The notes beneath the pieces are model-generated. The model was not told where the DNA came from and ran no database searches. It saw only the letters and a program-made list of their open reading frames with translations. Source: Urbifossiella limnaea (GTDB lineage: Bacteria > Planctomycetota > Planctomycetia > Gemmatales > Gemmataceae). From it: 64,000 bases of DNA. The translations under genes were made by a program, and so were the position numbers. Shown here piece after piece: positions 6,601-25,386 of the stretch. The stretch's first letter is position 1. Each line of letters begins with the position of its first letter. The DNA is taken from contig NZ_CP036273.1 of the NCBI RefSeq assembly GCF_007747215.1, positions 1,658,322-1,722,321 on the forward strand, written 5' to 3'.

Positions 6601-9600
6601 GCTGAACACGACGACGGCGACGAACGCGGGCAACCCCGGCTTCTACCAGTTCGCGGGCCTGCGGCCGAGCGACGCGGCCGGCTACGTCGTGACGTTCGGC
6701 ACGCTGCCGGGCTACGTCCGCACCGTGCGCGACTCGGCGGTCGCCACCGACGCCACCAACAGCGACGGCGACCCCACGTCGGGCGCGACGGCCGGCGTGG
6801 TACTTCCGGCCGGCGGGAACAACCCGACGATCGACCAGGGCCTGTACCAGCCGGTGAGCATCGGCGACCGGGTGTACTTCGACCGCGACGGCGACGGCGT
6901 GCAGGACGCGGGCGAGCCGGGCATCCCCGGGGCCGCGATCGAGGTGGTGTGGCTCGGGCCGGACGGCGCGTTCGGCGGCGGCGACGACCTGACGTTCAAC
7001 GCCACGACCGGCGTGGACGGCGGCTGGCTGGTGATCAACCTGCCGCCGGGCAACTTCCGCGTCACGGCGACGCCGCCCGCGGGCCTGGGGTGGGCGCTCA
7101 CCGACAGCCTCGACAACGCCGCCCTCTCCGCGACGAATCCGGTCACCGTCCCGATCACCTCGGGCGTCTCCCGCACCGACGTGGACTTCGGGTACCGCAG
7201 CACCGGGTCGATCGGCAACCGCCTGTACCTCGACGCGGACGGCGACGGGGTGCAGGACGCCAACGGCCTCGAACCCGGCCTGCCGGGCGTCACCGGCACC
7301 CTACGCTACGACGCCAACGCGGACGGCGACTTCACCGACCCCGACGACGGCCTGTTCACCACGGTGACGGACGCCGCCGGGCTGTACACGTTCGGGTTCC
7401 TGCCCCCGGGCGGGTACCAGGTGAGCGTCGCCGGCGCCGCGGGCCTGCCGGCGAACGTGGTGCTGACGGACAGCCTCGATAACGGGGCGCTCGGCGCGAC
7501 CGCGACGGTGACGAAGACGCTGGCGCTCGGCGAGAACGAGGTGACGTACGACTTCGGGTTCCAGGGGAACGCCAGCCTCGGCGACCTGGTGTACTACGAC
7601 GCCGACGGCGACGGGGTACAGGACGCAAACGAGCCGGGGATCGCGGGCGCGGCGGTATCGGCGACCTGGGTCGGGCCGAACGGCGCGGTCGGCGGCGGCG
7701 ACGACGTGACGTTCACGACCACGACGGACGCGCTGGGCAACTACCTGTTCCCGGGCCTGCCGGCGATCTCGCTGGTCGGCGCGAACCCCAACTACCGGGT
7801 GACCGTGGTTGCCCCCGCGGCGTTTCCGATCTTCACCGACTCGCTCGACGACGCGGCGCTGAATGCGGTGCGGCCGGTGGACGTGCAGGTGTCGCCGACG
7901 GACGGGTCGCCGCTGAACGACCGCCGCGACGTGGACTTCGGGTTCCGCGGGACGGCGAGCCTGGGCGACACCGTGTTCCTCGACTCCAACGGGAACGGCC
8001 GGCAGGACGGCGGGGCGGAGGTGGGCATCCCGGGCGTGGGGGTGTCGCTGTTCTTCGACCGCAACGCCGACGGCGACTTCGCGGATGCGGGCGAGGACGT
8101 GGCGCTGGCGACCGCCACGACCGGCGCCGGGGGCTTGTACTCGTTCACGAGCCTGGCCGCGGGCAACTACCAGGTGGTGTTCGGCACCACCGCCGGCGGC
8201 GTCACCTACACGCGCACCGTGCAGGACTCGGCGGTCGCCACCGACGCCACCGACAGCGACGCCGACCCGGTGACGGGTCGGACCGGCACCTACGCTCTCG
8301 CCAACGGCGACAACAACATCACGGCGGACGCCGGGCTGTACGTCCCGGTGAGCCTCGGCGACCGCGTGTACTACGACCTCAACGGCGACGGCGTCCAGCA
8401 GGGCACCGAGCTCGGCATTCCCGGCGTCGGCATCCAGGTCGTGTGGCACGGCCCGGACGGCGTGTTCGGCGGCGGCGACGACCAGACCGGTAATACCACG
8501 ACCGGCGCCAACGGCATCTGGTCCGTCGGCAACCTGCCGCCCGGCAGCTACACCGTGACCGCCACGCCGCCCGCGGGCGCCGGCTTCGACCAGCTCACCG
8601 ACTCGCTCGACAACGGCGTCCTCGGCGCGACCAACCCCGTGGTTGTGTCCACCACCTCCGGCGTGGACCGCGCCGACATCGACTTCGGCTACCGCGGCGT
8701 CGGCACCGTCGGCGACCGCGTGTTCCTCGACATCAACGCCAACGGCACGTTCGACGCCGGCGAAGGGCTGGACGGCGTCACCGTCACCCTGAGCGGCGAC
8801 CTGAACAACGACGGCACCCCGGACACGCTCACCACCACCACCGCGGCCGACGGCTTCTACCAGTTCCCGTTCCTGCGCGTCACCGCGGCCGGGGTGCCGT
8901 ACACGGTCACGATCAGTACCGCCACCCTGCCGCAGACCGGCGCCGGCGCGCCGATCACGAACACCGTCGATCCCGATACCGCCGGCACCGGTGACAACAC
9001 GTCGTCACTCACGCTGACCGCGGGTGCGCCGAGCAACCAGCTGCAGGACTTCGGCTACCGCGGCCCCGGCCGCATCGGCGATACCGTGTTCCTCGACGCC
9101 AACGGCAACGGCCTCCCGGACGCCGGCGAGGGGATCACCGGCGTCGTGGTGCGGCTCCGCGGCGACGTGGACGGCGACGGCACCGCCGAGGACTTTTTCG
9201 CCACCACCACCGCGGCCGGCGTCTACGACTTCTCGAACCTCCCGGTCCGCGATCGCACCGGAACGCTCGTCGCCTGGATGGTCACGGTCGATCCGGCCGG
9301 CACCACCCTGCCGGCGGGCGTGGCCAACACCACCGACCCCGACGGCGGCAACGACGGCACCGCGGCGCTGACGCTCGACCCGGCGAACCCGGTAAACCTC
9401 GCGCAGGACTTCGGCTACCGCGGCCCCGGTAGTATCGGCGACCGCGTGTTCCTCGACGTGAACGCCAGCGGCAGCTTCGACCCCGGCGAGGGGCTCACCG
9501 CGGTCACCGTCACGCTCACCGCCGACCTCAACGGCGACGGCGTGACCGAGACGCTGACCACCACCACCGACGCCGACGGGTTTTACCAGCTCAGCGGCCT

Positions 9601-12600
9601 CCCGGTGTTCCAGAACAACGGCACCGCGGCCGTGCCCTACGTCGTGACGGTGGTGGCGAGCACGGTCCCGGCCGGGCTCACGAACACCGTCGATCCCGAC
9701 ACCGCGAGCCCCGGCGACAACACGTCGTCACTCACGCTGAGCGCCGGGGCCCCGAGCAACCAGGCGCAGGACTTCGGCTACCGCGGCACCGGCGCCCTCG
9801 GCGACCGCGTGTGGATCGACAGCGACGGCGATTCCCTCCAGGGCGCGGTCGCCCTCGAACCGGGTCTCCCGGGCGTCGGGTTGACGCTGACGTGGTCCGG
9901 CGCCGACGACACGTTCGGCACCGCCGACGACGTGACCGGCGCGACCACGACCGACGCCGCGGGGAATTACTCCTTCAACGGCCTGCCGCTGGACCTCGGC
10001 CGGTTCCGCGTCGTCGTCACGCCGGCGACGCTGCCGGGGAACGCCACGCAGACGTTCGACCTCGACGGCCTCGCCACCCCCAACGACGCCGGCACCGCGG
10101 CGCCGATCACGCTAACGACTGCGGCCCCGAGCCGCACCGACGTGGACTTCGGTTACGTCGGCAGCGCGTCGCTGGGCGACCGCGTGTACGTCGACCAGAA
10201 CCGCGACGGCGTGCAGCAGGCGAGCGAGTCCGGCATCCCCGGCGCCGCCGTCACGCTGACGTGGGTCGGGCCGGACGGCGACATCAACACGCCCGCCGAC
10301 AACGTCACGTTCACGACCACCACCGGCGCCAACGGCCTGTACCTGTTCCCCGGCCTCATGGTGAACGGCCTCGCGGACGACTACCGCGTGCAGGTCACGC
10401 TGCCGGTGCCGGGCTTCACCCTCACCGACTCGCTGGACGACGGCACGCTCGCGGCCACGAACCCGGTGGACGTGGTCGTGTCCGGCGCCGTCGGCGACCC
10501 GCGGACGAACCGGCGCGACGTGGACTTCGGGTTCGCCGGCGCCGGCTCGCTCGCCGGCACCGTGTTCCGCGACGACAGCAACGAGGGCACCCAGGACGCG
10601 GGCGAGCCCGGCATCGGCGGCGTGGTCGTCACGCTCACCGGCACCGACGTGTTCGGCAACCCGGTCCTCGACCCGGCCACGGGTCAGCCGTACACGACGA
10701 CGACGGACGCGAACGGGAACTACTCGTTCACCGGCCTGCCGCCCGGCACCTACACCATCACCGAGACGCAGCCGACGGCCTACGGCGACGGAATCGACCG
10801 CGAGGGGAGCCTCGCCGGTACCGCCGGCAACGACGTGATCTCGGGCATCGTCGTCGGCCCGAATCAGGCCGGCGTCGGCTACACGTTCGGCGAACTGCCC
10901 ACGTTCGTCAGCGGCACCGTGTTCCGCGACGACAACCGCGACGGCGCCCCGCAGGCCGGCGAGCCCGGCATCCCGAACGTCCGCGTCGAGCTGCGCGACC
11001 CGGTGACGAACAACCTGATTGCGTTCACCACCACGGACGCGACCGGCGGCTACATCTTCGACCGCCTCCCGGCCGGCAACTATCGCATCGTCGAGATTCA
11101 GCCCACGGGCTACGCCGACGGCCCGGTCGGCCCCGCGACGGTGCGCGACGTGTTCGTTCCTACCACCGGCCTGACGGGGCAGAACTTCGCCGAGGTGCTC
11201 GGGAGCCTGAGCGGCCGGGTGTACATCGACACCGACATGGACGGCACCCGCGACCCCGGCGAGCCCGGCATCCCGGGCGTGACGGTCACCGTGGCCGGCA
11301 CCGACGTGAACGGCATCCCGGTCAACGTGACCGTGACGACGGACGCCGACGGCCGCTACACGGTGCTGAACCTGTTCCCGGCGGGCGAGGCCGGGTACAC
11401 GGTCACCGAGGGGCCGACGCCGCTGTACGCCGACCGCGCCGCGAACGTGGGCACCGGCTTCGACACGCCCGGGACCGCGGCGACGCCGAACCAGATCACC
11501 GGCGTGAACCTCACCCCGGGACAGAGCGGCGTCGATTACGACTTCGGCGAGGTCACCGGCAGCCTGAGCGGGTTCGTGTACGCCGACTTCGACATGAACG
11601 GCGTCCGCACCCTCACCGGCCCGCGCGCCGAGACCGGGGCGCACGTCCCCGGCACGAACACGCCGGGCGGCATCGCGGGGGTCACGATCACACTCACCGG
11701 CACCGACGGCGCCGGGACCGCGGTGAGCCGCACGACCACCACGGCCGCGGACGGCAGCTACATCTTCACCGGGCTCGCGGCCGGGACGTACACGCTGACC
11801 GAGACGCAGCCGCCGCTGCCGAGCACGCTCACGAACGGCTTCTACGACGGGGCCGAGACGCAGGGGAGCGCCGGCGGCACGGTCGTGACGCCGAGCCCGA
11901 CGTTCACCGCGGACCCGAACAAGAACCGCATCGTGCTCATCTCGCTGCCGGCGGGGGCGGACGGCACGGACTACAACTTCGGCGAACTGCCGCCGGCCGA
12001 CCCGTTCGGGTTCGTGTACGTGGACGCCAACCGCAACGGCGTCCGCGACCCGGGCGAGCGCGGCATCCCGAACGTGCCGGTGAGCATCAGCGGCACCGCG
12101 TTCGCCGGCACCGCGTTCGCCCGGCCGCTCACCGCCGCCGACGTGTCCGGCGGGCTGACACAGCTGACCGACGCGAACGGCCGCTACGAGTTCGTGCCGA
12201 TCCCGGCCGGGCTGTACACGCTCACCGAGGACCGCCAGCCGGCCGGGTACGCCGACGGCCGGGAGCAGGACGGCGACTCCAACGGCCCGCCGGCGACGGT
12301 CGGCAACGAGGTCATCTCGAACATCGCGCTGGCCCCGTTCCCGATCCGCGGGCCGTTCAACTTCGGCGAGGTGGCGCTGCCGGTGGTGCCGGGCACGCTG
12401 CCCCCGATCGACTTCTTCCCCACCGCCCCCGACGACATCAGCAAGCGGCAGTTCCTCACCACCACGCCGGACGTGCCGACGCCGCCCGCCGCTGCTACGG
12501 CGCCGAACTTCGCCGCGTTCAACCCCGGCGCCCGGCCGGCGGCGCTCGCGGCTGTTGCGGAAGGGGAAGGCGGCACGGGGTTGGTCCGCGTGTTCGACTT

Positions 12601-13486
12601 CGCCGGCGGCGCGGAGCGGTTCCGGTTCCGCTCGTACGGCGACTTCGCCGGCGGCGCCCGCGTCGCCACCGCGGACGTGACGGCCGACGGCATCCCGGAC
12701 GTGGTCGTCGTGCCCGGCGCCGGCGGCGGGCCGGTGGTCAAGGTGTTCGACGGCAACAGCGGCGCCGAGGTGCGGAGCTTCCTAGCGTTCGAGGAGTCGT
12801 TCCGCGGCGGGCTCCGCGTCGCGGCCGCGGACCTCAACGGCGACTTCGTGGCCGACATCATCGTCACCCCGGACACCGGCGGCGGCCCGATCGTGCGGGC
12901 GTTCGACGGCCGCACCGGGGCGGTGATCGCCAACTTCTTCGCGCTCGACCCGACGTTCCGCGGCGGCCTCCGCGTCGCCACCGGCGACGTGAACCGCGAC
13001 GGCACCGCCGACGTGGTGGTGACCGCCGGCGAGGGCGGCGGCCCGCGCGTCGCCGTGTACGACGGCCGCACGGTCGGCATGGCCGAGCCGGCGCGGCTGG
13101 CGAACGATTTCTTCGGGTTCGCGCCCGAGCTGCGGAGCGGGTTCTGGGTGTCGTCCGCGGACGTGGACGGCGACGGCTTCGCCGACGTGGTGATGGGCGC
13201 CGGGGCCGGTGGGGCGCCGCGGGTGGTGGTGTACAGCGGCCGGCTGCTCGCGGCCGGCGACGGGCCGCGCGAGGTCGCGTCGTTCTTCGCCGGCGAGCCG
13301 GCCGACCGTGGCGGCGCCCGCATCGTGGCGACCGACCTCGAAGGCGACGGCCGAGCGGAGGTGCTGGCGGGAGCGGGCGTTGGGGCGTGGCCGCTGGTCG
13401 GAATCTACGACCCGCTGACGGGTCTGCGGCGCGACGTGTTCTACGCCACGTCGGCGCCGTTCCGCGGAGGGGTAGAGGTGGGGTGA
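680..13486 (+). CDS. Giant secreted repeat protein (LEDR signal, DUF11-like, SdrD-B-like repeats, FG-GAP tail)
   Basis: The product is a 4268-residue surface or matrix protein. The ATG at 680 is preferred over a TTG at 638 because it puts the planctomycete extracellular motif LERLEDRCNP at about residues 29-38. Residues about 50-1795 hold roughly eight DUF11-like beta-sandwich units, recognisable by phrases such as LRDNLPTGL and LTDAIPAGL. Residues about 1800-3890 hold 17 SdrD-B-like domains, each opening with a calcium-loop-like D-x-[DN]-x-[DN]-G (for example DRDGDGVQDAGEPG). Residues about 3965-4268 hold five FG-GAP/VCBS-type repeats (for example DVDGDGFADVV). There is no catalytic motif. 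Related architectures act as adhesins or extracellular scaffolds; the adhesion role here is inference. The gene is followed by a strong hairpin at 13496. Confidence in the architecture is high and in the precise role low. Confidence 0.9.
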   Translation: MTPTRPISRRIARSLLTAPVRRTRPVDQLERLEDRCNPAPVATVSGLPADTQPLLGETVNYNVTFANTGTTTGYGPFIELAVDTSGPDGTSGGGAVDGIGTPSVTIAGQPLTPRGSVTLIAGQTTYVNPITGDTRNLAAVYGSRFNTGDTIYFYGSPFGSFTPAQTTTAQVTLPTSTRADVNTPMPVSIVGGFRDDEPALNGPAVYAARVDGTITPQLYRLTKIYTGPESETATGPNYVRRYRIEVDVATGQTVSDLRVTDALANTMQLVARDTTVIAGNPNIAVSRTGGSSTFVPGQLTATGGAATGAPVPTAPGGSITYQFLPGGLTHTGVAGVDAALEFNFYVPRDADTAGAPVAPDPANPTVPQGTDSTTATNTASSTLDWTPVDTRDPAQNDVGPAASGSVLSHTLEQQSVAIQKSATVVDKDTGAVVPAGQPIRPGQSLIRYTLNFQVSDYVALNDVFVRDVVGDGQRLYLGPVGGNPTTAFPTLTVTNAYLTGAPGTRQTTAGAFTGTDTIEYQRRYTAGTAASDPTSFPADGPTGAVFNALPPNVQPDGPTSDAGTTYLQFNVSQELQARLGPTAGRLVGAEILNDGTGPQNDNHPETNPPPGPVTGTIVFYVEVTDEFGDEFRVANGGSGDPTVDQGDVLGNTVNDPRTPARDGVFGDLISAGTINDPTPTVIGRGSDDSGTSVAIPYGEETKQLVAINGQGVPAQGSANPPFTVQAGDRVTYLLTYTLPISRFEDLKLVDFPPLPVMNLGQAPNNTATFTRDPAAYGFNPGEVGVFVSGVTPGGVSAAGFQSDTYFSTFAPGNGTGRNPILTIDAPNNSLTIDLGTQDDAQNRFTVVSVLVTFTVGNDPFATDLFLTNQLRVFEGSTNAGTTTVDDLNRFGLVRPAVNLYKGIVGTQAGAAAATGTTFGDVVFTGPGTAFGFSNQLNTVAEATALGNANTASLDAADRVRFALVAQNVGRGDAFDTRIRDVLPTGYVVPAAFPGHVFRGSGGAELVAGVDYTVVSYNATTGEFVIELTDNYTAGNVGGAAEDARGGGLSRGTRTDQALGNVAITNGSNAVVVLFDLTIAGTVAPAQALTNTATVPVYSNSDNGPNYTDPTVIPGATVPTDTATVTVPTAGTKSIVSTSEASTSEAGTGTTGSPRVVAVGEVVRYRLAFQLAEGTATNFQLRDNLPTGLTFLNDGSARVAFVSNGGGISSTTLAGAGLAVTGASGAVVPTFTIPPGAITGGSFVTGTDPLFSLGTLTNTDSDVDGEFVVVEFNALVDNSVAGSNDAGDNRDNMHSALVNGTSVFTSGLVRVRVAEPSITDLVKAANPTVGDAGDTITFTVTFSNPNAADRTTAFDLVLTDILPAVGYDTVAFVAGSLVTTGATNAAVAVAGNTVTFTADALAVGGTVSFQYTARLVANVGPGSYRNTANLTYTSLPGTNGTPVNPTGGATPGTPGTDTGERTGSGTNPNDYLDSDFEDVFVNAPVVKSIVGTNQAFTAGTTVAVGEQVQYQVVVTIPEGTTPTGVLRDVLPAGLAVVSLDSLTAVADVGLTTDAPGGFAGVLAAARAALAAPGQSITFNVGTLVNADRDPDGETLTFTYTVVVLNTAGNQRGTALTNSATTATGGVDRSTTSAPAVTVAEPTVRVTKTVTPTTGDASNADADAVTFTLVIDHAPASNADAFNIALTDAIPAGLTYVAGSLTNTAGVVPATLGASAGTLSASFTSLALGQSSTLTFRARLNGTTTPGQVVTNTAALTYTSLPGDVTAPQTPYNPASVERTGAGGVNDYVASDPEGVTVNSNAIGGVIYRDLDNDGLYEPGAGETLITSSIRVQLTGTDNLGFAVSTIITTATGSYNFTALRPGTYTLTQLDQPAGLLDGRDTPGTSTPGAPFGGTGTPAVTPRAPRDADAITTITIGLVGSKTGTNYNFGEVLPAQLGDFVWHDLNGNGRQDGGEPGLNGVAVTLTGTDDSGQPVTLNTTTATNAGNPGFYQFAGLRPSDAAGYVVTFGTLPGYVRTVRDSAVATDATNSDGDPTSGATAGVVLPAGGNNPTIDQGLYQPVSIGDRVYFDRDGDGVQDAGEPGIPGAAIEVVWLGPDGAFGGGDDLTFNATTGVDGGWLVINLPPGNFRVTATPPAGLGWALTDSLDNAALSATNPVTVPITSGVSRTDVDFGYRSTGSIGNRLYLDADGDGVQDANGLEPGLPGVTGTLRYDANADGDFTDPDDGLFTTVTDAAGLYTFGFLPPGGYQVSVAGAAGLPANVVLTDSLDNGALGATATVTKTLALGENEVTYDFGFQGNASLGDLVYYDADGDGVQDANEPGIAGAAVSATWVGPNGAVGGGDDVTFTTTTDALGNYLFPGLPAISLVGANPNYRVTVVAPAAFPIFTDSLDDAALNAVRPVDVQVSPTDGSPLNDRRDVDFGFRGTASLGDTVFLDSNGNGRQDGGAEVGIPGVGVSLFFDRNADGDFADAGEDVALATATTGAGGLYSFTSLAAGNYQVVFGTTAGGVTYTRTVQDSAVATDATDSDADPVTGRTGTYALANGDNNITADAGLYVPVSLGDRVYYDLNGDGVQQGTELGIPGVGIQVVWHGPDGVFGGGDDQTGNTTTGANGIWSVGNLPPGSYTVTATPPAGAGFDQLTDSLDNGVLGATNPVVVSTTSGVDRADIDFGYRGVGTVGDRVFLDINANGTFDAGEGLDGVTVTLSGDLNNDGTPDTLTTTTAADGFYQFPFLRVTAAGVPYTVTISTATLPQTGAGAPITNTVDPDTAGTGDNTSSLTLTAGAPSNQLQDFGYRGPGRIGDTVFLDANGNGLPDAGEGITGVVVRLRGDVDGDGTAEDFFATTTAAGVYDFSNLPVRDRTGTLVAWMVTVDPAGTTLPAGVANTTDPDGGNDGTAALTLDPANPVNLAQDFGYRGPGSIGDRVFLDVNASGSFDPGEGLTAVTVTLTADLNGDGVTETLTTTTDADGFYQLSGLPVFQNNGTAAVPYVVTVVASTVPAGLTNTVDPDTASPGDNTSSLTLSAGAPSNQAQDFGYRGTGALGDRVWIDSDGDSLQGAVALEPGLPGVGLTLTWSGADDTFGTADDVTGATTTDAAGNYSFNGLPLDLGRFRVVVTPATLPGNATQTFDLDGLATPNDAGTAAPITLTTAAPSRTDVDFGYVGSASLGDRVYVDQNRDGVQQASESGIPGAAVTLTWVGPDGDINTPADNVTFTTTTGANGLYLFPGLMVNGLADDYRVQVTLPVPGFTLTDSLDDGTLAATNPVDVVVSGAVGDPRTNRRDVDFGFAGAGSLAGTVFRDDSNEGTQDAGEPGIGGVVVTLTGTDVFGNPVLDPATGQPYTTTTDANGNYSFTGLPPGTYTITETQPTAYGDGIDREGSLAGTAGNDVISGIVVGPNQAGVGYTFGELPTFVSGTVFRDDNRDGAPQAGEPGIPNVRVELRDPVTNNLIAFTTTDATGGYIFDRLPAGNYRIVEIQPTGYADGPVGPATVRDVFVPTTGLTGQNFAEVLGSLSGRVYIDTDMDGTRDPGEPGIPGVTVTVAGTDVNGIPVNVTVTTDADGRYTVLNLFPAGEAGYTVTEGPTPLYADRAANVGTGFDTPGTAATPNQITGVNLTPGQSGVDYDFGEVTGSLSGFVYADFDMNGVRTLTGPRAETGAHVPGTNTPGGIAGVTITLTGTDGAGTAVSRTTTTAADGSYIFTGLAAGTYTLTETQPPLPSTLTNGFYDGAETQGSAGGTVVTPSPTFTADPNKNRIVLISLPAGADGTDYNFGELPPADPFGFVYVDANRNGVRDPGERGIPNVPVSISGTAFAGTAFARPLTAADVSGGLTQLTDANGRYEFVPIPAGLYTLTEDRQPAGYADGREQDGDSNGPPATVGNEVISNIALAPFPIRGPFNFGEVALPVVPGTLPPIDFFPTAPDDISKRQFLTTTPDVPTPPAAATAPNFAAFNPGARPAALAAVAEGEGGTGLVRVFDFAGGAERFRFRSYGDFAGGARVATADVTADGIPDVVVVPGAGGGPVVKVFDGNSGAEVRSFLAFEESFRGGLRVAAADLNGDFVADIIVTPDTGGGPIVRAFDGRTGAVIANFFALDPTFRGGLRVATGDVNRDGTADVVVTAGEGGGPRVAVYDGRTVGMAEPARLANDFFGFAPELRSGFWVSSADVDGDGFADVVMGAGAGGAPRVVVYSGRLLAAGDGPREVASFFAGEPADRGGARIVATDLEGDGRAEVLAGAGVGAWPLVGIYDPLTGLRRDVFYATSAPFRGGVEVG
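6079..12369 (+). repeat. Array of 17 SdrD-B-like protein repeats encoded in the giant gene
   Basis: Units begin near 6079, 6482, 6860, 7208, 7575, 7960, 8353, 8705, 9070, 9433, 9795, 10170, 10550, 10905, 11207, 11563 and 12000, so the period is mostly 350-390 bp. Each starts with a phrase like IGDRVYFDRDGDGVQDAGEP, continues with a Thr-rich beta strand, and ends with DFGYRG or YNFGE. Some units are closer to distant units than to neighbours: units 2-3 resemble 6-7, unit 8 resembles 10, and unit 5 resembles 12. That points to block duplication or recombination inside the gene. Confidence 0.85.
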
Positions 13487-16447: not shown

Positions 16448-18430
16448 TCAGAGGGCGAAGAGCGGGTCGGCCGCCCACCGGGCGAGCGAGTCGGCACGGC
16501 CGTCCTTGTTCCAGCAGCCGGGGTGTTCGGTGTTGATCACGACCCGGGGGCGGAGGGCGGGAAACGCCTCGCGGACGACCGCGCCCATCACGTCGTGGGT
16601 CAGCTCGGCGACCTCCTGTAGTAGATCCAGCCGCGCCTCGAACACGAAGGCGTCGTGGAGGGGTAGGATCAGCCGCGCGTCGTACGGGCGGTAGAGGCGG
16701 TCGAGCCGGTTGCCGGCCTCCTTGAAGAGCGTCGCGGCGGCCGCCTGGACCGGGAAGTTGACGAACCAGTTCCGCTCCCACCGGGACGGCGGGCCGGCCG
16801 CCGGCCGGTAACGCCGGAGCCCGGATCCGGAGACGGCACCGCCGCGACTCGCCCCCTGCGCCCGTGCCGCGGCAAGGCCGGCGTGGAGGGCCGGATAGGC
16901 GGCCGCGAATGCCGCCGCGAAGGCGGTGGCGTTCGGCCCGAGCCGAGCCTCGAGCCCCTCCCGCCCGAGGCCGTAGATCAGCCCCAGGACGGCCACCTTC
17001 GCCCGCTCGCGCAGGTCGGGGTACGCCGCCCGGAAGTTTGTCGGTGTCAGGTTAGCGGCATCGGGCGGCAAGTCAGCGGCAAACACGATCTGGGCGGCGG
17101 CGGCGTACACATCGCCGGCGTTGAACGCCGCGATCAGTCGGTCGTCGCCGAACACGGCCGCGGTCACCCCGACCTCGATCTGGGCCCAGTCGGCTTCGCC
17201 GATCCCGTTCCCCGGGTCCGGCACGACCAGCGGTCGGAAAATGCGGCCGATGCCGGGGAGGTTGGGGGAGTCGCACGTCAGCCGCCCGGTGTGGGCGCCG
17301 AGGACGTGGTACCGCGGGTGCACGCGGCCGTCGGGGCCGGTGAACTCGCCGGTCAGGACGCGGTTCGCCCGGAGCGTTTGGATCCGTCGAAGACACCGGA
17401 TAAGCGGTACTGCCTCGGGGCGGTCGGCGGCGCCGTCCAGCCGGTCGCCGCCGAAGTCGAACCCGTCGCCGCGGCGGAAGTGGTCGAGCAGTTCCGCGGC
17501 GGCGAAGTAGGCCCGTAGGTCCTCGTCGCCGACCCCACGGAGTCCGAGGGTCGCGAGTCGGTCGAGCAGGTCACGACTGTGCGTCGCGGCGGTCGCGGCG
17601 ACGGACGTGGACCGGACGGGATCGACCCGGGCCCCGTGCCAGGACATCCGCGCCGTGGTCACGACCCACGGCATTTCGACCCGGACGAGGTGGTCGAGGA
17701 CGCCGCGGGTCGCGGCCTCGGAGACCTGGCCGAGGTAGACGCCGGCGGCGGTCGCGGCGACGTCGGCCGGGCCCGCGGCGGCGATCGGCACGCCGTACCT
17801 GGCGGCCAGGGCGTGCAGCCCGGTCGCGGCCGCCCGCTCGGCGGTCAGGTCCCCCCGGGCGGCGATGGCAGCGGCGGTGTCGGCGGCCGGACTGTATCGC
17901 GGGTGGTGGACGCCGAGGAGGAACGCGGCCGCCGCCACTCGCACGTCCCAGACGCACTGCGGGTCCGGGATCTCGAGCTGCCACAGGATGTGCAGCACGT
18001 CCTCCAGGCCGTGGCCGACGACAGTGACCCCGGGGCGGAGTACGCCCGAGAGGTGGGGGGCGACGGCCGGGTCGCCGAGGTCGACGTCGTAGCGGTGGAG
18101 GAGGACCCCGCCGCCGTCGGGGACGCCGACCGCGAGGCCGACGCGTGTCGTTGCGGCCGCACTCGCGCCTGGAGTAGAATTCGGTTGTTGGGTCACGGCG
18201 ATGCCGACCACGCTCACGTCGCGGCCGCGGGCGAACGCCGCCATCCCGGCCGCCGGCTGCGGGGTCGAGACGCGGGTGACGTCGTCTGCCCGGCCGGCGG
18301 CGGCGGGCGTCACGCTCAGCCGCACGGGGGAAGGGCCGACGGCGGCCGCGACCAGGTCGACCCACCCCGGGGCCAGTTGGAGGCCGGGGGAGGGGGGCTC
18401 AGCGGGCCTTTTAATAGTATTAAGATGCAC
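16448..18430 (-). CDS. Family-A DNA polymerase of the mobile element
   Basis: The 660-residue product carries the Pol I palm motifs: motif A ADWAQIEVGV near residue 411 (catalytic Asp kept), motif B RERAKVAVLGLIYGLG near 473 (Lys and Tyr kept), and motif C LPLHDAFVFEA near 590, where the usual HDE reads HDA. The N-terminal 230 residues look like a degenerate 3'-5' exonuclease fold (GHGLEDVLHILWQ, WDVRVAAAAFLL), with the DxE metal motif not evident. There is no 5'-nuclease domain. It starts with a GTG at 18430 inside the end of the helicase gene (11-base overlap), with an A-rich/G8 run just upstream acting as ribosome binding site, so translation is probably coupled. Family-A enzymes of this layout replicate phages and plasmids. 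Confidence 0.85.
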   Translation of the reverse strand: MHLNTIKRPAEPPSPGLQLAPGWVDLVAAAVGPSPVRLSVTPAAAGRADDVTRVSTPQPAAGMAAFARGRDVSVVGIAVTQQPNSTPGASAAATTRVGLAVGVPDGGGVLLHRYDVDLGDPAVAPHLSGVLRPGVTVVGHGLEDVLHILWQLEIPDPQCVWDVRVAAAAFLLGVHHPRYSPAADTAAAIAARGDLTAERAAATGLHALAARYGVPIAAAGPADVAATAAGVYLGQVSEAATRGVLDHLVRVEMPWVVTTARMSWHGARVDPVRSTSVAATAATHSRDLLDRLATLGLRGVGDEDLRAYFAAAELLDHFRRGDGFDFGGDRLDGAADRPEAVPLIRCLRRIQTLRANRVLTGEFTGPDGRVHPRYHVLGAHTGRLTCDSPNLPGIGRIFRPLVVPDPGNGIGEADWAQIEVGVTAAVFGDDRLIAAFNAGDVYAAAAQIVFAADLPPDAANLTPTNFRAAYPDLRERAKVAVLGLIYGLGREGLEARLGPNATAFAAAFAAAYPALHAGLAAARAQGASRGGAVSGSGLRRYRPAAGPPSRWERNWFVNFPVQAAAATLFKEAGNRLDRLYRPYDARLILPLHDAFVFEARLDLLQEVAELTHDVMGAVVREAFPALRPRVVINTEHPGCWNKDGRADSLARWAADPLFAL

Positions 18431-20270
18431 TTTGAGCCCCCCCCTTCGCCGCCTTCAGGAGGCGTTTGACCGTCGCCAGGCTGACTCCCAGGGCCGCCCC
18501 GATCTCCCGCCTCGTCGTCCCTCCCGCCCGCAGCCGCGCCGCCTCCGCCGCCTGGTCGACCCGTGCTGCCAGCCGCCTTTCCGCCGGGGTCGGCAAGCCG
18601 AAGTGGGCGCGGAGCTCGGCCGGCGAGCGGAACTCGAGGTCGTATGGCGCGCCCGGCAATGCTCCGACCTGGAACGTCACGACCTCCCGGGGGCGGGTGA
18701 ACGGGCGGACCCGGCCGACGGCCTGGACGACCACGTCCGCCTCCTTCTGCTCCAGCGCCCAGGCCGCCAGCTGCGGCACGATGGTGTTGGCGACGGCCGG
18801 GTCCTCGACGACGGCCGCGCGGCGCGGCGGGTTGGTGCCGAAGGTGAGCCGGACGGCGACCCGCCGGCCCGCCGGCTCGAAGTCGTTGACCAGACACTCG
18901 ACGGCGGCCGGGGCGGCGTAGTACCCGGTCAGGCAGTAGACCGCGTCGTGCAACTCGAACCGGTTGATGCCGCTCACGCCGTAGGTGATGAGGGGGATCA
19001 CCCGGGGGTCGGTCAGGTCGTACCGCTCCCACCCCTTCGTCACCACCCGAACGGTACCGCCGACGAGGGCCTTGACCCGCCGCTGCATCGCCGACTGACA
19101 GTGCTCCCGGAACTGCTTCTTGCAGACAAGGAGCGTCGTCTTCCGATTGGTGATGTTGCGGGCGACCAGTCGGGCGAACACGTCGAGGATGCGGCCCGCG
19201 TTGGCCGGGAAGTACTTGGCCGTGCCGGCGGCGTTGGCCAGGTTTACCCAGCGGGTGCCGGGGTGGGCGAACCGGTAGTCGGCGAACGGCGCGGCGATCG
19301 CCCCGCGGCGGTGGTCGGGGTCGAGGCGGAACCGGACCAGGCCGGGGGCGGCCGAGCCCGAGAAGACGATCGACCGGTCGCCGAGGACTGGCGGAAGTGC
19401 GAACCGCACCCCGCCGTCGGGGAGGCGGTCGCGGGTCGAGGGGTCGGACCGGCCGAACTGCGCGACGTCGTAGGCCACGAACCGAAAGGCGGGCCGGTGG
19501 GCCGCGCGGCCGGCGGCGGCGACGTCCGCGGCCCACCCGGCGCTGAAGCCCGGGAACTGCCACGGGTCGTAGAGGTCGTCGCCCGCGGCGAGGAGGGTGC
19601 GGCACGCCTCCGCCCACGCCGCCCCGGTCGCACACCCGGTCGCGGCGGCGGCGTCCGCGAACCGGTGGAGGTCGGGGCCGGCGACGTGGCGGCGGAACGG
19701 CCGGAGGAGGAGGTCCGACTCGTCGACGAGGGTGACGACGTCCGCCGCGCCGGTCGCGGCTTGGACGCGGCGGACGAAGTGGGGGTCGGTCGCCAGGTGC
19801 TGCTGGGCGGCGAGAACCAGCCGGCTCCCGGAAAGGCCCTTCCAGCGCGACAGCCAGTCGCAGGTGGACTGGTGCGGGCAGCGGCCACACAAATCCCGGC
19901 GTGCCAGCGCCGCGCAGCCGAGTTGCTCGAGTTCGGCCCACTCGGCGTCGAGCGGGCCGCACCGCTTCCGCGGCCGGCGGTCGAGGTTGACCGGGGCGAG
20001 GCCGAGAGCGCGGAGCCGCCCCCGGGTCTCGACGAGGATGTCGGTGCGCGGGGCGGTGACAAGGACGAGAGTGTCGGGCTCGGTCGCCGCCAACTCGGCC
20101 GCGACCGCGTCCAACGCGTGGCTCTTGCCGACGCCGACCGGCAGGCCGACGAGCAGGGGGCCGTTCGCGGCGGCGAGGTGCCGGAGGATGGAGGGACCAT
20201 CGAGGCCCCGGCGGAACTCCGCCAGGGCTTCGTCCCCGGCCACCACGGTGGTGACGGGGGTGCCGGTCAC
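18420..20270 (-). CDS. SF2-type helicase with cysteine cluster and C-terminal HTH
   Basis: The 616-residue product has a P-loop PVGVGKS near residues 44-50, a DExD-type Walker B VDESD near 183 and a motif VI QAVGRVRPF near 520. Between motif I and motif II sit Cys104, Cys119, Cys128, Cys131 and Cys137, placed like the 4Fe-4S cysteines of XPD/DinG helicases. The last 35 residues form a helix-turn-helix (TRREIGAALGVSLATVKRLL). The expected role is unwinding, or loading, for the polymerase encoded next. It starts at a GTG overlapping the stop of the SSB-like gene by 4 bases (GTGA) and its end overlaps the polymerase start, giving a three-gene coupled block. The iron-sulfur proposal is inference from spacing. 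Confidence 0.7.
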   Translation of the reverse strand: MTGTPVTTVVAGDEALAEFRRGLDGPSILRHLAAANGPLLVGLPVGVGKSHALDAVAAELAATEPDTLVLVTAPRTDILVETRGRLRALGLAPVNLDRRPRKRCGPLDAEWAELEQLGCAALARRDLCGRCPHQSTCDWLSRWKGLSGSRLVLAAQQHLATDPHFVRRVQAATGAADVVTLVDESDLLLRPFRRHVAGPDLHRFADAAAATGCATGAAWAEACRTLLAAGDDLYDPWQFPGFSAGWAADVAAAGRAAHRPAFRFVAYDVAQFGRSDPSTRDRLPDGGVRFALPPVLGDRSIVFSGSAAPGLVRFRLDPDHRRGAIAAPFADYRFAHPGTRWVNLANAAGTAKYFPANAGRILDVFARLVARNITNRKTTLLVCKKQFREHCQSAMQRRVKALVGGTVRVVTKGWERYDLTDPRVIPLITYGVSGINRFELHDAVYCLTGYYAAPAAVECLVNDFEPAGRRVAVRLTFGTNPPRRAAVVEDPAVANTIVPQLAAWALEQKEADVVVQAVGRVRPFTRPREVVTFQVGALPGAPYDLEFRSPAELRAHFGLPTPAERRLAARVDQAAEAARLRAGGTTRREIGAALGVSLATVKRLLKAAKGGAQSAS

Positions 20271-20914
20271 GACTCGATGCCGCGCATCAGGGCCTCGGCG
20301 GCCAGCCCGGGGATGCTCAGGAGCTCGGCCCGCGGGCGCGCGGGGTAGACGTCGGCGAGCCGCACCGCGCCCGACGTCAGGTTGGCCAAGAACTGCGCGA
20401 TCACGGGGGCCCCGTCTGCCCCGCCGGGCGTGAGGGGAAAGGCGGCCACCTCGAAGCTGAAGTCCGGGAGCCGGCGGATCTCAACGACCAGCTTCTCGCC
20501 GGCCATCACGCGGTCGAGGATCGGCACCAGCTTCGGCCCCAGGGCGCCCGGGCGGACGTTGTCGCCGATCGCCAGGACGCGGACGGCCCCGTCGGCGGGG
20601 ACGTACACCGGCAGCAGGGTAACGTCCTCGGCCTTCTTCCCGAGGGCGCAGAGCAGGCAGCCCCCGCCCTCGCAGCGGACGTATCCGCCGTTACCGGTCG
20701 CTGAGCGGATGAAGTGGCGGCTGGTGAGTGCCGCCGAGTCGGTGAACGGGACGATGAGGGTGGCGTCCTCCCCGAGGCGGACGGTGGAGAGGGACTGCGG
20801 GGGGAGGGGCGGGGCGGCCCACCGCCCCCGGGCCGAGATCAGGCCGGCCGGGGGCCGCGGCGCCGCCGGGGCGGGGGTGGCGGTCGGGTCGGTCTCGGTG
20901 GTCGTGTCGGTCAT
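20267..20914 (-). CDS. Putative zinc-type single-strand DNA-binding-like protein
   Basis: The ATG at 20914-20912 has GAGG about 9 bases upstream; a GTG about 15 codons earlier is an alternative. The 215-residue product has a disordered Thr/Pro/Ala-rich N-terminus (1-40), then a beta-rich core with His67, Cys81, Cys86 and Cys89 (RCEGGGCLLC), and continues with VTLLPVYVPADGAVRVLAIG and KLVVEIRRLPDFSFEVAAFP. The H...C-x4-C-x2-C layout recalls the zinc-bearing SSBs of the T4 gp32 kind, and the position before helicase and polymerase genes fits. The assignment is an inference, not a recognised family hit. Its stop overlaps the helicase start by 4 bases. Confidence 0.45.
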   Translation of the reverse strand: MTDTTTETDPTATPAPAAPRPPAGLISARGRWAAPPLPPQSLSTVRLGEDATLIVPFTDSAALTSRHFIRSATGNGGYVRCEGGGCLLCALGKKAEDVTLLPVYVPADGAVRVLAIGDNVRPGALGPKLVPILDRVMAGEKLVVEIRRLPDFSFEVAAFPLTPGGADGAPVIAQFLANLTSGAVRLADVYPARPRAELLSIPGLAAEALMRGIES

Positions 20915-21270
20915 CGTCTGGGCCTCGTAGGTGACGGGGGTGTCAATCGGGTCGGTCACGGTCGGGTACTCGCTGCTGGCTAGTGGTTGGGTCAGGAGGT
21001 AGGCGCCCCAACCGACTCGCTCCTGGCCGGTCGTCGGGGGCTTACGGTCAGACGATTCAATCACCGCCCGGCTCCCGGAGGCGGGCATCGGCGGCCTGGA
21101 TCGCGCGGGTCCGCTGGGCGTCGAGTGCGGCCCGGGAGAGGGATCGGGGGTGGCCAACACCCCTTCGGCGTCGATCGCGTTTTCGTTTCGGAGAACAACC
21201 GTCGGCTGCTGTCCACCCGCAGCGCCACCATCATCCTGGCTGCGGGCTCTCCGCCTCCGCCGACCGAAAC
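20915..21270. other. 356-bp leader between HTH gene and replication block
   Basis: No secure gene. On the minus strand a frame ending at 21057 reads AALDAQRTRAIQAADARLRE before a stop, which looks protein-like, but it has no clear start and could be the tail of a decayed or frameshifted neighbour. The rest probably holds the promoter or leader of the SSB-helicase-polymerase block. Confidence 0.35.
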
Positions 21271-21654
21271 TCAGTGCGGAGCCGCCGGCGGCCCGAGTTC
21301 GGGGATCGGCGCCCGACGCGCCCGCGATCCAAGGGAGTCGCCGACCAGTTGCCGCACTCGGGCCTTGGCCGCCTCCACCCGGGCACCCCTTTGACTCGCT
21401 GTCTCCGAGGGCCTGCTGAGAGCGCCGGCCTGGTTGCCGAGGAGTTTCAGCAGTTCCACGCCGAGGATGCGGTATGGTGCCCGCGCCGAGCCCCGCGGTA
21501 GAGCCGACAACCGCTTGCCGCGGACCCAGCGGATCGCGGTCGACTCGGACACCCCCATCAGACCGGCCAGGTCCGCGGTCGAGTAGATCACCCCCGGCTT
21601 CACCTCCAGCCAATCGATCAGCGGCAGGCGAGGCCTGTCCGCCCGAGCACACAT
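21271..21654 (-). CDS. Excisionase-like helix-turn-helix protein
   Basis: The start is the ATG at 21654-21652, because AGGAGG sits seven bases upstream; an in-frame GTG at 21675 is less likely. The 127-residue product has an HTH_17/MerR-like DNA-binding domain in its first 75 residues: IYSTADLAGLMGVSESTAIR, then RWVRGKRL and a hydrophobic YRILGVELLKLL. This is the fold of excisionases and of small regulators of integrated elements. The C-terminal 50 residues are basic and probably disordered. It is upstream of the replication block and just beside the IS630 copy. It could direct excision with the recombinase at 23907 or regulate replication genes. Confidence 0.65.
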   Translation of the reverse strand: MCARADRPRLPLIDWLEVKPGVIYSTADLAGLMGVSESTAIRWVRGKRLSALPRGSARAPYRILGVELLKLLGNQAGALSRPSETASQRGARVEAAKARVRQLVGDSLGSRARRAPIPELGPPAAPH

Positions 21655-21755
21655 GTCCGACCTCCTCGGGACCACAGTGACGGCCTTGATCCTCTCGGAT
21701 CCTAACTAGTTTCTGCTGTCGTAATTTTCCTAGGACCCCACCCGGCGAGCGGCTA

Positions 21756-21777
21756 GTGTCCTGAGTTGCGAATTCGT
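21756..21777 (+). repeat. IS630 left inverted repeat
   Basis: It starts directly after the TA at 21754-21755 and matches the right end at 22894-22915 when reversed; the strongest identity is over GTCCTGAGTTG. Confidence 0.8.
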
Positions 21778-21834
21778 TAACTCGACCTTGCGCCTCATCG
21801 GGCAGGTCGGTAGGGTTGCGGTCGGAGGTGCCCG

Positions 21835-22918
21835 ATGCCCCGACTCCAGCCCCTGACCGTGACCGACGAGCGGGCCAAACTCGACGCCTGGGTCCGCCGG
21901 CCGAAGACCGCCCAGCGGCTCGCCCTCCGGTCCCGCATTGTCCTGGCCGCCGCCGCCGGGCAGTCCAACACGGCCATCGCGGCCGCCCTCCGGGTCACCC
22001 TCCCGACCGTCGGGAAGTGGCGGCAGCGGTTCCTCGACCGCCGACTCGACGGGCTGAACGACGGCCCCCGGCCGGGGCCGCCGCGGACCATCACCGACGC
22101 CCACGTCGAGGACGTGGTCACCCGGACGCTCGAGTCCAAGCCGGCCAACGCCACCCACTGGAGCACCCGGGGGATGGCCAAGGCCACCGGCCTGTCCCAG
22201 ACGGCGGTCAGCCGCATCCGGCGGGTGTTAGGCCTCCAGCCCCACCGGCACGAGGCGTTCAAGTTCTCTCGACCGACCCGTCCTTCGTGGAGAAGGTCCG
22301 GGACGTGGTCGGGCTGTACTTCGACCCGCCGGACCGGGCCGTCGTCCTGAGCGTGGACGAGACGAGCCAGGTCCAGGCCCTCGACCGGACCCAGACGGTC
22401 CTCCCGATGACCCTCGGGCAGGCCGAGCGTGGCACCCGCGACTTCGTGCGGCACGGCACCACGTCGCCCTTCGCCGCCCTGGACGTGGCGACCGGGAAGG
22501 TGATCGGCAAGTGCCACCGCCGGCACCGGCACCGGCGGTTCGTGACGTTCCTCGCCGACATCGACGCCGCCGACCCGGCGGAGGACGGGGTGACGACCCA
22601 CCTGGCGCTGGACAACTACGCCACCCACAAGACCCCGGCGGTGAAGCGGTGGCTGGCGAAGCCCCCGCGGTTCGTCGTCCACTTCACTCCGACCCGCGGG
22701 TCGTGGCTCAACCAGGTCGAGCGGTTTTTCGCCGCGATCACCGAGAAGCGGATTCGTCGCGAGGTGTTCGAGACGGTCGAGGCACTGGAACAGGCGATCG
22801 AGGCGTACCTGGTCGAGCACAACGCGAACCCGAGCCCTTCCAGAGGACCGCGACCGCCGGCCTCATCCTCTGTCAGGTCGAGGACGTTTGCACACGAACC
22901 ACCAACTCAGGACGCTAG
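21835..22918 (+). pseudogene. IS630-family transposase, frameshifted twice
   Basis: The first frame starts at ATG 21835 and encodes the N-terminal HTH region (QSNTAIAAALRVTLPTVGKW) up to HRHEAFKFS. At about 22268 the reading must shift (a 2-base gain or 1-base loss) to continue as TDPSFVEKVRDVVGLYF and the DDE catalytic core: VVLSVDETSQ, HLALDNYATH and TRGSWLNQVERFFAAI. Near 22835 a second shift is needed to end as EPFQRTATAGLILCQ and stop at the TAG formed with the flanking TA. One frame change might be programmed in some IS elements, but two make an inactive gene more likely. All DDE residues are still readable, so the decay is recent. Confidence 0.85.
22894..22915 (-). repeat. IS630 right inverted repeat
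   Basis: It ends directly before the TA at 22916-22917 and is the imperfect inverse of 21756-21777. The last codons of the transposase run through it, so its stop codon depends on the target TA. Confidence 0.8.
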
Positions 22919-22980
22919 ACAAAAATGTTTCACGACCCGAAAAATCCGGCTCGCTGCTCGTGCTGCCAAAGGCGTGCGAT

Positions 22981-23835
22981 ATGATTTCGCTTGGGAAGAA
23001 TTCTCCCGGTGGGACCGAAACGATGCCGACAGACGGAAACACCGGTAAGCCCGCGCGCAGTTCGCCATCCACGCCGAGTACGGCAAAACACCGGACCGTG
23101 AAGGTGGCAAAGGAACTGGTGGCCATCGCCCGCAAGACGGCAGTGCTGCGGGGCCAGACCATCGAGGATTATGTCCTGCCGATCCTGGAGGAGTGCGCCG
23201 GCCAGGCGGCTGCGGACATCGGAGCCGACGGGCCACTGGTCCTGCGAGAGCGGGCGGACAAACTGAGCCATCTCACTTACAAGAAGAACCTCGGCACCCT
23301 GAACTTGGTCGGGCAGGCCCCAACCCGCCTCGCAAGTCTGGCCGGCCAATGCCTGACCAGCGTCGCCAAACTGATCGACCCATATTTTCGTAAGATTATT
23401 GAAGCGAATTACTCTGCTGCTCTCCATCGAGAATTCAGTAACGTCTGGCCAGTCTTAAGCCACAGGTTCACCCTCCCTCTCTTTAGCGTTTCCGGTGACT
23501 CGAAGACCTTGCTCTGTGAGGCGGGTCGGTTTGACTTCCTTGACATATTCGATCCCAACGCCGCCATGCTCCGCGTACCGGGCGAACCCTCGGACGGGAT
23601 TCGCTTAATGCCCGGGGACAGCGTGTGTATCCGCCGCGGCGTCCCCCCTTCGGCGGGGGACACAGTGGTCGTAGTAGTCGGCGGAAAGGTGGTTTTGAAA
23701 GACGTGCGTAATTCTGTCGGTGGGTTATTGCTCCACCCGCGGACGGGCCGGTCGCGGCCAGTGCGGGTCGAGGCCGAGCCGGGGCTTGTCGGGGTGCTTG
23801 CCTTCGTCCTCAGGGCTTCCCAGCCGACTGGCTGA
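22981..23835 (+). CDS. Ribbon-helix-helix / S24-like repressor candidate
   Basis: The ATG at 22981 has AAAGG eight bases upstream; an in-frame ATG at 23023 is an alternative. The 284-residue product has an N-terminal ribbon-helix-helix-like segment (VKVAKELVAIARKTAVLRGQ then TIEDYVLPILEE, about residues 40-72). Its C-terminal 90 residues resemble LexA/UmuD S24 folds: LRVPGEPSDGIRLMPGDSV near 197, then AGDTVVVVVGGKVVLKDV with the Lys at about 238. The usual catalytic GDSM Ser-Met is replaced by GEPSDG, so self-cleavage is doubtful. It is the only long gene of the element on the plus strand, as expected of a master repressor. Base composition is noticeably less GC-rich than its neighbours, a sign of transfer. 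The fusion of these two parts is my reading and needs a fold prediction. Confidence 0.5.
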   Translation: MISLGKNSPGGTETMPTDGNTGKPARSSPSTPSTAKHRTVKVAKELVAIARKTAVLRGQTIEDYVLPILEECAGQAAADIGADGPLVLRERADKLSHLTYKKNLGTLNLVGQAPTRLASLAGQCLTSVAKLIDPYFRKIIEANYSAALHREFSNVWPVLSHRFTLPLFSVSGDSKTLLCEAGRFDFLDIFDPNAAMLRVPGEPSDGIRLMPGDSVCIRRGVPPSAGDTVVVVVGGKVVLKDVRNSVGGLLLHPRTGRSRPVRVEAEPGLVGVLAFVLRASQPTG

Positions 23836-23906: not shown

Positions 23907-25184
23907 TTAACGGGCGTTCGCAAGGTCGGGCGCGAGATCCTCCGGCACACCCGCGGACCCGCCCCGAGCCTTCGCCACCTCGGCCGCAGTCTTGACCGCC
24001 GCGCCCGCGTAATGCTCCGCCATGCTCTTCGTGTGGTGGCCGAGCAGCGCCTGCACGGCGTCGAGGCCGAACACCTCCTGAATCTCCGCCGCGGCCAGAT
24101 GGCGGAGCTGATACGGGAACCACGCCGGCACCCCGGCCTTCTCGCACGCGCGAGTGATCGCAGCCCGGTAGCTGTTGTCGGTGTACCGGTCCTTCGGTGA
24201 GCGGCGCGGCGCCGCCACCTTCGGCACCTTCCGGTTCCCGCCCGACCCGCCGCCCCGCGCCAGGCGCGCGGCCTGCTGCTCGGCTCGCAGCCCGTCCGTC
24301 GCCTCCTTCGGCGAGAAGCACGGGGCGTCGGGGTCGCGTTCGAGGAACGGGGCGAGTACGGCCTGGGCCTCGCCGGCGAAGAGCAGAACACGAGGCTTGT
24401 TCTTCCACGTCAGCTTGTGCTTCTTCGGCACGTAGGCCCAGACGCCGAGTTTGTCGAGGTTGTGCCGGCCGGCACCCGGGACGTTGATGACGCCGCCCCG
24501 GTGGACCTGGGCGGGCGTCATCGCACACACCTCGCCGGGCCGGGCGCCGCTCGCCAGCTGCAACACCACCATCGCCCGCGGCTGCGGGCGGAGGAACGGC
24601 AGCACCGCCTTCACGTGCTCGGGGTCGGCGGGGTCCACGGTCCTTGGCGCCCGGGCCTCGCCGACCTTGGGCCGCGGCACCGCCTTTAATGCGTGCCAGC
24701 GCTCGGGAGTGGTCCGCTCGGCCTGGACGCCCCACCGCCAGATGCGGCGGACGGTGTCCACGTGGTAGTTCACCGTCGAGACGCTGAACCGCTTCACCCC
24801 AGGCTTCCTCAGGCCCGGGAGCCCGCAGAGCCACGTCTGCCAGGCGCGCAGGTCCTTCGGGCCGAAGTCGGCGACGGCGGTGGCGGCGTGGAGTTCGAGC
24901 AGCTGTTCCACGGCCAGGGCGGCCCGGTCGCGCTGCAAGCCCTCCTGCGGGGAGTCCGGCGACGCCAGGTAGTCGGCGCACAACTCCGACACGAGGTAGT
25001 CGTCGGGGCTCAGCGCGGCGGCCGTCGGGTCGATCGCCCACAGCGCGGCCAGGCGGCCGTACTCGGCACGGGCCTCGTTACCGCCGGCGACGCCGAGGTC
25101 GTGCCACTTCCCGTTCCACCACACCCGCTCGCGGTCGCGGAAGACGGACGGCTTCCCCAGGTACGACTTCTGCGGCCGGCCCAT
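23907..25184 (-). CDS. Tyrosine recombinase (integrase)
   Basis: The 425-residue product has an N-terminal arm/SAM-like core-binding region (to about residue 170) and a C-terminal catalytic domain. The box-I Arg is in SGARPGEVCAM near 214, a catalytic Lys candidate in KKHKLTWKNK, box II in PYQLRHLAAAEI near 365, a His in LLGHHTKSMAEHYAG and the nucleophile Tyr near 391. In box II the usual first His is a Tyr-Gln pair, so the pentad is R-K-(Y/Q)-R-H-Y; substitution at this position is tolerated in some families. Start ATG at 25184. It faces away from tRNA-His, which ends 128 bases upstream, and a perfect palindrome lies in between. Confidence 0.9.
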   Translation of the reverse strand: MGRPQKSYLGKPSVFRDRERVWWNGKWHDLGVAGGNEARAEYGRLAALWAIDPTAAALSPDDYLVSELCADYLASPDSPQEGLQRDRAALAVEQLLELHAATAVADFGPKDLRAWQTWLCGLPGLRKPGVKRFSVSTVNYHVDTVRRIWRWGVQAERTTPERWHALKAVPRPKVGEARAPRTVDPADPEHVKAVLPFLRPQPRAMVVLQLASGARPGEVCAMTPAQVHRGGVINVPGAGRHNLDKLGVWAYVPKKHKLTWKNKPRVLLFAGEAQAVLAPFLERDPDAPCFSPKEATDGLRAEQQAARLARGGGSGGNRKVPKVAAPRRSPKDRYTDNSYRAAITRACEKAGVPAWFPYQLRHLAAAEIQEVFGLDAVQALLGHHTKSMAEHYAGAAVKTAAEVAKARGGSAGVPEDLAPDLANAR

Positions 25185-25216: not shown

Positions 25217-25244
25217 GAGTTTACGGAGCTAGCTCCGTAAACTC
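25217..25244. promoter_or_regulatory. Perfect 28-bp palindrome upstream of the integrase gene
   Basis: The two 14-base halves (GAGTTTACGGAGCT and its inverse) meet without a spacer; flanking bases extend the symmetry imperfectly to about 25209-25253. It lies 33 bases upstream of the integrase start, between that gene and the tRNA-His 3' end. It could be an operator for an element regulator, a recombinase core or arm site, or a tRNA/integrase transcript terminator. A seamless palindrome is more typical of a protein-binding site than of a terminator. Confidence 0.6.
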
Positions 25245-25311
25245 AAGGTCGGTAGCGTTGAGGCTTGAGCGTCGAGCCTGCTTAAACCCTTATCGATTCG
25301 GGACTTAGGAG

Positions 25312-25386
25312 GGTGACTGACGGGATTCGAACCCGCGACATCCAGAACCACAATCTGGCGCTCTAACCAGCTGAGCTACAGCCACC
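25312..25386 (-). tRNA. tRNA-His (GTG)
   Basis: On the minus strand the acceptor GTGGCTG (25385-25379) pairs with CAGTCAC (25319-25313), the D arm reads GCTCAGCTGGTTAGAGC, the anticodon loop TTGTGGT gives GTG, and the T arm contains GGTTCGAATCC. A G at 25386 opposite C at 25312 supplies the extra -1 G typical of tRNA-His. CCA is not encoded. Its 3' end faces the integrase gene. Confidence 0.95.

Follow-up and report, generated by a model that had tools for sequence, protein, structure and literature searches.

A possible ribbon-helix-helix repressor with a LexA/S24-like domain that has lost its self-cleavage residues, encoded in a tRNA-His-bounded segment of Urbifossiella limnaea

The stretch of DNA analysed here, referred to as the window, comprises 64,000 nucleotides of the 7.8-Mb single-contig genome of Urbifossiella limnaea (G000:C1:1658322-1722321). 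On its forward strand, an intact open reading frame runs from an ATG at 22981 to a stop at 23835 and encodes 284 amino acids, and a second possible start, the in-frame ATG at 23023, gives a product of 270 amino acids (23023-23835). Residue numbers below refer to the 270-residue form. The initial annotation had read the gene as a ribbon-helix-helix (RHH) domain joined to an S24-like C-terminus, and the peptide KELVAIARKTAVLRGQTIEDY and the motif GEPSDG, which it had quoted from the two halves, are both present in the frame. The gene, called the RHH-S24 gene in the following, is convergent with a tyrosine integrase gene (23907-25184, reverse strand; PF00589, 39.7 bits; phrog_1, 104.7 bits) and divergent from a reverse-strand gene for an excisionase-like protein (21271-21654, start estimated), which matches Pfam HTH_17 with 27.4 bits at a cut-off of 27. 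An insertion of the IS630 family lies between the two divergent genes (21756-22915, forward strand). The reverse strand also carries genes for an SSB-like protein (20267-20914, start estimated; weak match to phrog_14578, E 0.087), an ATPase/helicase-like protein with a C-terminal HTH by Pfam and ResIII at just E 0.32 (18420-20270), and a family A DNA polymerase (16448-18430; Pfam DNA_pol_A, E 7e-31).

These three genes (16448-20914) are shared as a module with L106 (L106:8850-13500), which comes from another genome of this genus, where the polymerase homologue is 42% identical and the homologue of the SSB-like protein, 38% identical, is encoded beside an ATPase; a 40% identical homologue of the window's ATPase occurs in G483. 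The L106 locus also holds a recombinase of the serine type and a Prim-Pol gene, and a tblastn search of 20 kb of it with the RHH-S24 protein gave nothing below E 0.7.

An exact direct repeat of 45 bp (25309-25353) covers the 3' part of a tRNA-His gene (25311-25385). As the other copy of the repeat lies about 49.6 kb away (G000:C1:1633997-1634041), the element, or a larger island, covers that distance. The segment bounded in this way holds sulfatases, an aquaporin-family gene, transposases and an ORF of 4282 amino acids, and it appears more island-like than phage-like. The long ORF occupies 638-13486 on the forward strand.

Orientation and composition set the RHH-S24 gene apart from its surroundings, as the initial annotation had proposed, with one restriction on the former. 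The genes for the polymerase, the ATPase, the SSB-like protein, the HTH_17 protein and the integrase all lie on the reverse strand in the module at 16.4-25.2 kb, with the IS630 gene on the forward strand. The opposite direction of the RHH-S24 gene thus holds within this module only, since forward-strand genes occur as well across the full 49.6 kb between the tRNA repeats. The lower GC content is borne out, at 62.0% against 73.9% for 16448-21675 and 72.5% for the integrase gene, a value as low being found in 0.8% of the 813-bp windows sampled over the 64 kb. GC at third codon positions is likewise 0.72, compared with 0.82-0.94 in six other genes of the module.

The C-terminal half of the protein (residues 144-270; 23452-23832) is a LexA/S24 domain, a conclusion that is well supported, with a match that exceeds chance. 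Pfam PF00717 scores 24.7 bits (E 2e-5) on this half, above its cut-off of 23.3, and 22.7 bits on the whole 284-residue protein. The best S24 relatives reach an E-value of about 1e-8 per genome, and S24 matches occur in 42 of 392 genomes of the phylum at E ≤0.001, the genome itself counted, and in 69 of 102 genomes of the order at E ≤0.01. Among the matches listed, at most 30 per search, the relatives that were examined are of the LexA type, apart from two (L006 and L007) that read as UmuD-like. Other profile searches gave weaker signals in the same direction, namely NCBIfam UmuD (E 0.0004) and lexA (E 0.004), both far below their cut-offs, a UmuD-like PHROG (E 0.007) and, as the best PDB sequences, LexA chains at E 0.027. 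An AlphaFold2 model built from the protein and 34 LexA-type C-termini has a block of pLDDT 79-93 over residues 181-270, with a whole-protein mean of 62. It resembles LexA by Foldseek (2.6e-6) and by VIA (3k2z, Z 10.8, rmsd 3.0 over 115 aligned residues), and the CI repressor of phage 186 by VIA (2fjr, Z 9.3). The LexA-type rows of its alignment lean the model towards LexA, while the sequence matches are independent of the model and thus unaffected by them. The initial annotation's S24-like C-terminus is well supported by a Pfam score above cut-off as well as by a predicted fold matching LexA.

Within this domain, the residues needed for LexA-style self-cleavage can be followed in an alignment of 34 of 42 C-terminal stretches from the same phylum, from which near-duplicates and two odd ends were omitted, along with L006 and L007, the UmuD-like pair that lacks a cut point. 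Where all 34 relatives carry the nucleophile Ser and 33 of them the Met that follows it, the RHH-S24 protein has Pro189-Ser190 (23587-23592), and the general base is kept as Lys226 (23698-23700), a lysine in all 34. The change of the catalytic Ser-Met motif to GEPSDG with retention of the lysine, as first described for this gene, is therefore upheld. In addition, the scissile Ala-Gly of the relatives, with Ala in every one of the 34 and Gly in 32, is replaced by Asp159-Ser160 (23497-23502), a loss that the initial annotation did not report. A second alignment, of 59 of 62 related ORFs with the N-terminal hits L040, L041 and L042 omitted, shows the serine and the lysine to be invariant in all 59. 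With nucleophile and cleavage site both gone, it is well supported by the aligned residues that the protein has probably lost LexA-style self-cleavage. RecA should then not trigger self-cutting, so that another route of release would be needed. Seven columns remain identical in the protein and all 34 relatives (G187, G198, D199, K226, L237, G257 and R264).

The N-terminal half is, in our assessment, probably an RHH domain, with a core at residues 24-58 (23092-23196). Its sole Pfam match at E ≤10 is to ParD (E 0.065, 14.1 bits at a cut-off of 27.3), and over about 40 residues it aligns free of gaps to each of two proteins from the genome searches. One, L042 (E 0.017 among 392 genomes), has 77 residues, adjoins a PIN-domain gene and matches a FitA-like RHH family best (24.2 bits, cut-off 27); the other, L134 (E 0.40 among 102 genomes), matches TacA1 above cut-off with 79.4 bits. 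These E-values are counted per genome, so that chance alone should yield matches as strong as these in searches of that size, and L042 and L134, the two scanned with Pfam among 40 non-self matches, are informative only in that RHH families are their best Pfam hits. An AlphaFold2 model of 76 residues, built from three rows, two of which are the RHH-type proteins L042 and L134, has a mean pLDDT of 75, with a block of 82-95 over model residues 11-50, and consists of helices at residues 19-42 and 47-87, with a short turn between them. Its eight top Foldseek matches, from Arc and the KacTA complex, are all RHH chains, although none has an E-value better than 1.8, and judged by title 21 of the 29 chains listed are RHH proteins; the remaining eight include phycobilisome, helicase and oxidoreductase chains. 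By VIA, all Z scores of the model were below 5.

Other observations do not favour RHH. The ribbon is absent from both AlphaFold2 monomer models, which place a helix at the expected strand. A strand that forms only with the dimer partner may, however, escape monomer prediction based on three sequences. In hhalign comparisons with a profile of one narrow RHH family, the NikR type (22 of 28 peptides), the N-terminus scored 0.78 against a shuffle median of 2.43 and a best of 8.84 in 150 shuffles, while L042 and L134 scored 13.89 and 8.38 with the same profile. Given how narrow that family is, the low score speaks neither clearly for nor clearly against RHH. No PHROG matched the N-terminus, the PDB sequences gave a single unrelated match (E 1.1), and no RHH relatives of L042 were found in viral contigs. 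Pfam likewise matched no family in residues 76-176, between the halves, and no HTH family anywhere in the protein at E ≤1. The proposed RHH N-terminus is thus left with hints from family and fold, none of them significant alone, set against models without a ribbon and a negative NikR-profile comparison. Fold prediction, suggested at the outset as a check on both halves, gave a LexA-like C-terminus and an N-terminus of two helices without a ribbon.

The combination of the two halves appears singular in the genomes searched. In the search for the same domain pair, which the initial annotation had suggested, no second RHH-S24 protein was found in 392 genomes of the phylum and 102 of the order, and pattern scans and tblastn for relatives of the protein returned none. 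There is no second copy of the gene in its own genome, where the sole other S24 match is a LexA of 231 amino acids. The LexA winged helix (LexA_DNA_bind, Pfam E ≤0.01) is found in 55 of the 59 related S24 ORFs, and no RHH family appears in the 59 among the 25 of 29 families listed. In a tree of the C-terminal domain, the protein groups with the LexA-like proteins L066, L073, L081 and L083 of the same order, a sequence-based placement that is poorly supported (support 0.415, on a long branch) and can be taken only as provisional. Pfam identified element replication genes in two of five regions fetched around that group, in a scan that covered part of their ORFs: L176 has Prim-Pol with AAA_25, and L180 has DUF3987 and AAA_24. 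In L180 (L180:1043-2820), an HTH_17-like gene (18.2 bits, below cut-off) is transcribed divergently from the S24 gene, which is directly preceded upstream by an ORF of 78 amino acids with an RHH_1 match below cut-off (E 0.054). Against the RHH-S24 N-terminus, this ORF gives a pairwise shuffle p of 0.0085, and it may hint, as a lead only, at the source of the RHH half. Together, this suggests that the RHH-S24 gene may have arisen through the remodelling of a LexA-like repressor carried by an element.

A divergent layout is usual for a repressor and an early operon, and apart from the IS630 copy the estimated start of the excisionase-like gene and the start of the RHH-S24 gene are about 206 bp apart. 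The insertion belongs to NCBIfam NF033545 and has TA at both edges and inverted ends. The two halves of its transposase lie in different frames, by programmed shift or decay; with the cut-off at 100 bits, the second half scores 145 bits and the first 82 bits. Starting at the target TA, a sigma-70-like promoter match (22916-22945, forward strand) lies upstream of the RHH-S24 gene, a match to the consensus only, with one found against 0.1 expected from shuffles; no terminator match was found there. In the rejoined region, taken as 205 bp, a search for operator repeats gave four imperfect palindromes against 2.31 expected (fraction 0.24), with no significant excess. The immunity-repressor role proposed for the gene agrees with its position divergent from the excisionase-like gene, whereas a search of the shared region showed no operator. 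As the IS630 copy splits the shared promoter region, the switch may already be broken.

A candidate binding site had been named elsewhere, as the target for a gel shift, in the perfect palindrome of 28 bp upstream of the integrase gene (25217-25244), which occurs as a single copy in the genome at ≤3 mismatches. This choice was probably wrong, since the core of the palindrome, the GTTTACGG inverted repeat, also precedes two related integrase genes, those of L108 (L108:1434-1479), whose integrase is the closest relative with 46% identity, and L121 (L121:1407-1432). The repeat is thus found upstream at two of 19 integrase loci, and any inverted repeat with an arm of at least 9 within 460 bp at nine of the 19. 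Up to 260 bp upstream of the integrase gene, inverted repeats occur at eight of 17 loci, two of the 19 having been dropped for incomplete sequence, compared with 11 of 220 control windows. In the 19 kb around the L108 integrase (L127), tblastn at E ≤0.1 matched the integrase alone and not the RHH-S24 protein. The palindrome is therefore an unlikely operator of the RHH-S24 protein and is most likely a feature of the integrase gene or of the attachment region.

It is well established that RHH dimers bind short palindromic sites and that the S24 domain of CI-type repressors joins dimers cooperatively. The reading we favour, to which we give nearly even confidence, is that the RHH-S24 protein acts as a RecA-independent repressor of the element integrated at tRNA-His, with its dead S24 domain used for dimerising or oligomerising. 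The N-terminal RHH domain would bind DNA, most likely in the roughly 206-bp region shared with the divergent excisionase-like gene, and would keep the excisionase and replication genes off. The catalytically dead LexA/S24 domain might serve only to dimerise or oligomerise, and by joining RHH dimers could provide cooperative binding as in CI-type repressors. Release would then depend not on RecA but on an antirepressor, on the protein no longer being made or on its being diluted, and the element would be silenced without responding to the usual DNA-damage signal of the cell. It is possible, and put forward more tentatively, that this amounts to a new architecture, in which the LexA-like winged helix has been swapped for an antitoxin-type RHH domain and both cleavage determinants have been lost, so that what had been an SOS sensor turned into a RecA-blind RHH repressor of higher order.

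The same features could be read in other ways. The gene might be a decaying orphan, an S24-family regulator without function whose catalytic residues were lost through disuse and whose promoter region was struck by IS630. Such decay would fit the lack of a second copy or any full-length relative found, the joint loss of cleavage site and nucleophile, and the position of the insertion between the gene and its divergent partner. However, the frame of 270 codons is intact, seven columns are identical with all 34 relatives and a promoter-like site persists after IS630, and we consider decay unlikely. A question of a different kind is whether the N-terminus, instead of being RHH, folds as a helical hairpin that mediates oligomerisation or contacts other proteins, which would make the protein an antirepressor or partner instead of a DNA-binding repressor. 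The helical model of residues 19-42 and 47-87, with no strand, and the negative NikR-profile comparison would agree with this, yet the Pfam family and the Foldseek hints point to RHH, and a dimer-dependent strand may be missed by monomer models from so few sequences, so that we assign the hairpin a low probability. Finally, the dead S24 domain could pair with the LexA of the host as a decoy and shift or block the host SOS response or LexA cleavage. The host has one LexA above the Pfam cut-off (L002), and the RHH-S24 protein retains G257 and R264 near its C-terminus, but with about 28% identity between the two domains cross-dimers are uncertain, and the gene layout gives no pointer to the host regulon; we regard a decoy as very improbable.

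The repressor reading can be set beside several known systems. With LexA and Peptidase_S24 (PF00717) proteins of the same phylum, the RHH-S24 protein has in common the C-terminal fold, the conserved glycines, Asp199 and the lysine of the dyad, whereas it is without the serine nucleophile and the Ala-Gly site, and no LexA winged helix was found in it. The LexA of Synechocystis PCC 6803 still has its LexA-type N-terminal domain and regulates host genes, in contrast to the element-borne RHH-S24 gene. Like the RHH-S24 protein, it has lost both the Ala-Gly site, changed to Gly-Gly, and the serine, Ser119 having become Asp, and the authors of that report judge it non-cleavable (PMC3091678). On the N-terminal side, the RHH-S24 protein resembles ParD, FitA, TacA and Arc in a two-helix core with a Gly turn, about 40 residues being aligned, but unlike RHH antitoxins its gene has no matching toxin gene noticed beside it, the neighbours being the IS630 copy and the integrase gene. 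We know of no RHH antitoxin or repressor fused to an S24 domain, and a search of the open-licence PMC literature for RHH with an S24/LexA fusion found no paper joining both. The CI repressor of coliphage 186 (2fjr) shares the S24-like C-terminal fold (Z 9.3), although both 186 CI and the Gifsy repressors bind DNA through HTH domains, unlike what is proposed for the RHH-S24 protein. According to one study, the Gifsy repressors are induced without cleavage, being inactivated by small antirepressors, and 186 Tum is named there as an earlier antirepressor case, so that such uncleaved repressors can be released (PMC3121763).

RHH and S24 domains rank among the most thoroughly studied components of bacterial switches. 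If the proposed repressor is real, an S24 domain could be retained purely for assembly while serving a different DNA binder, and a mobile element could escape SOS control through the loss of self-cleavage.
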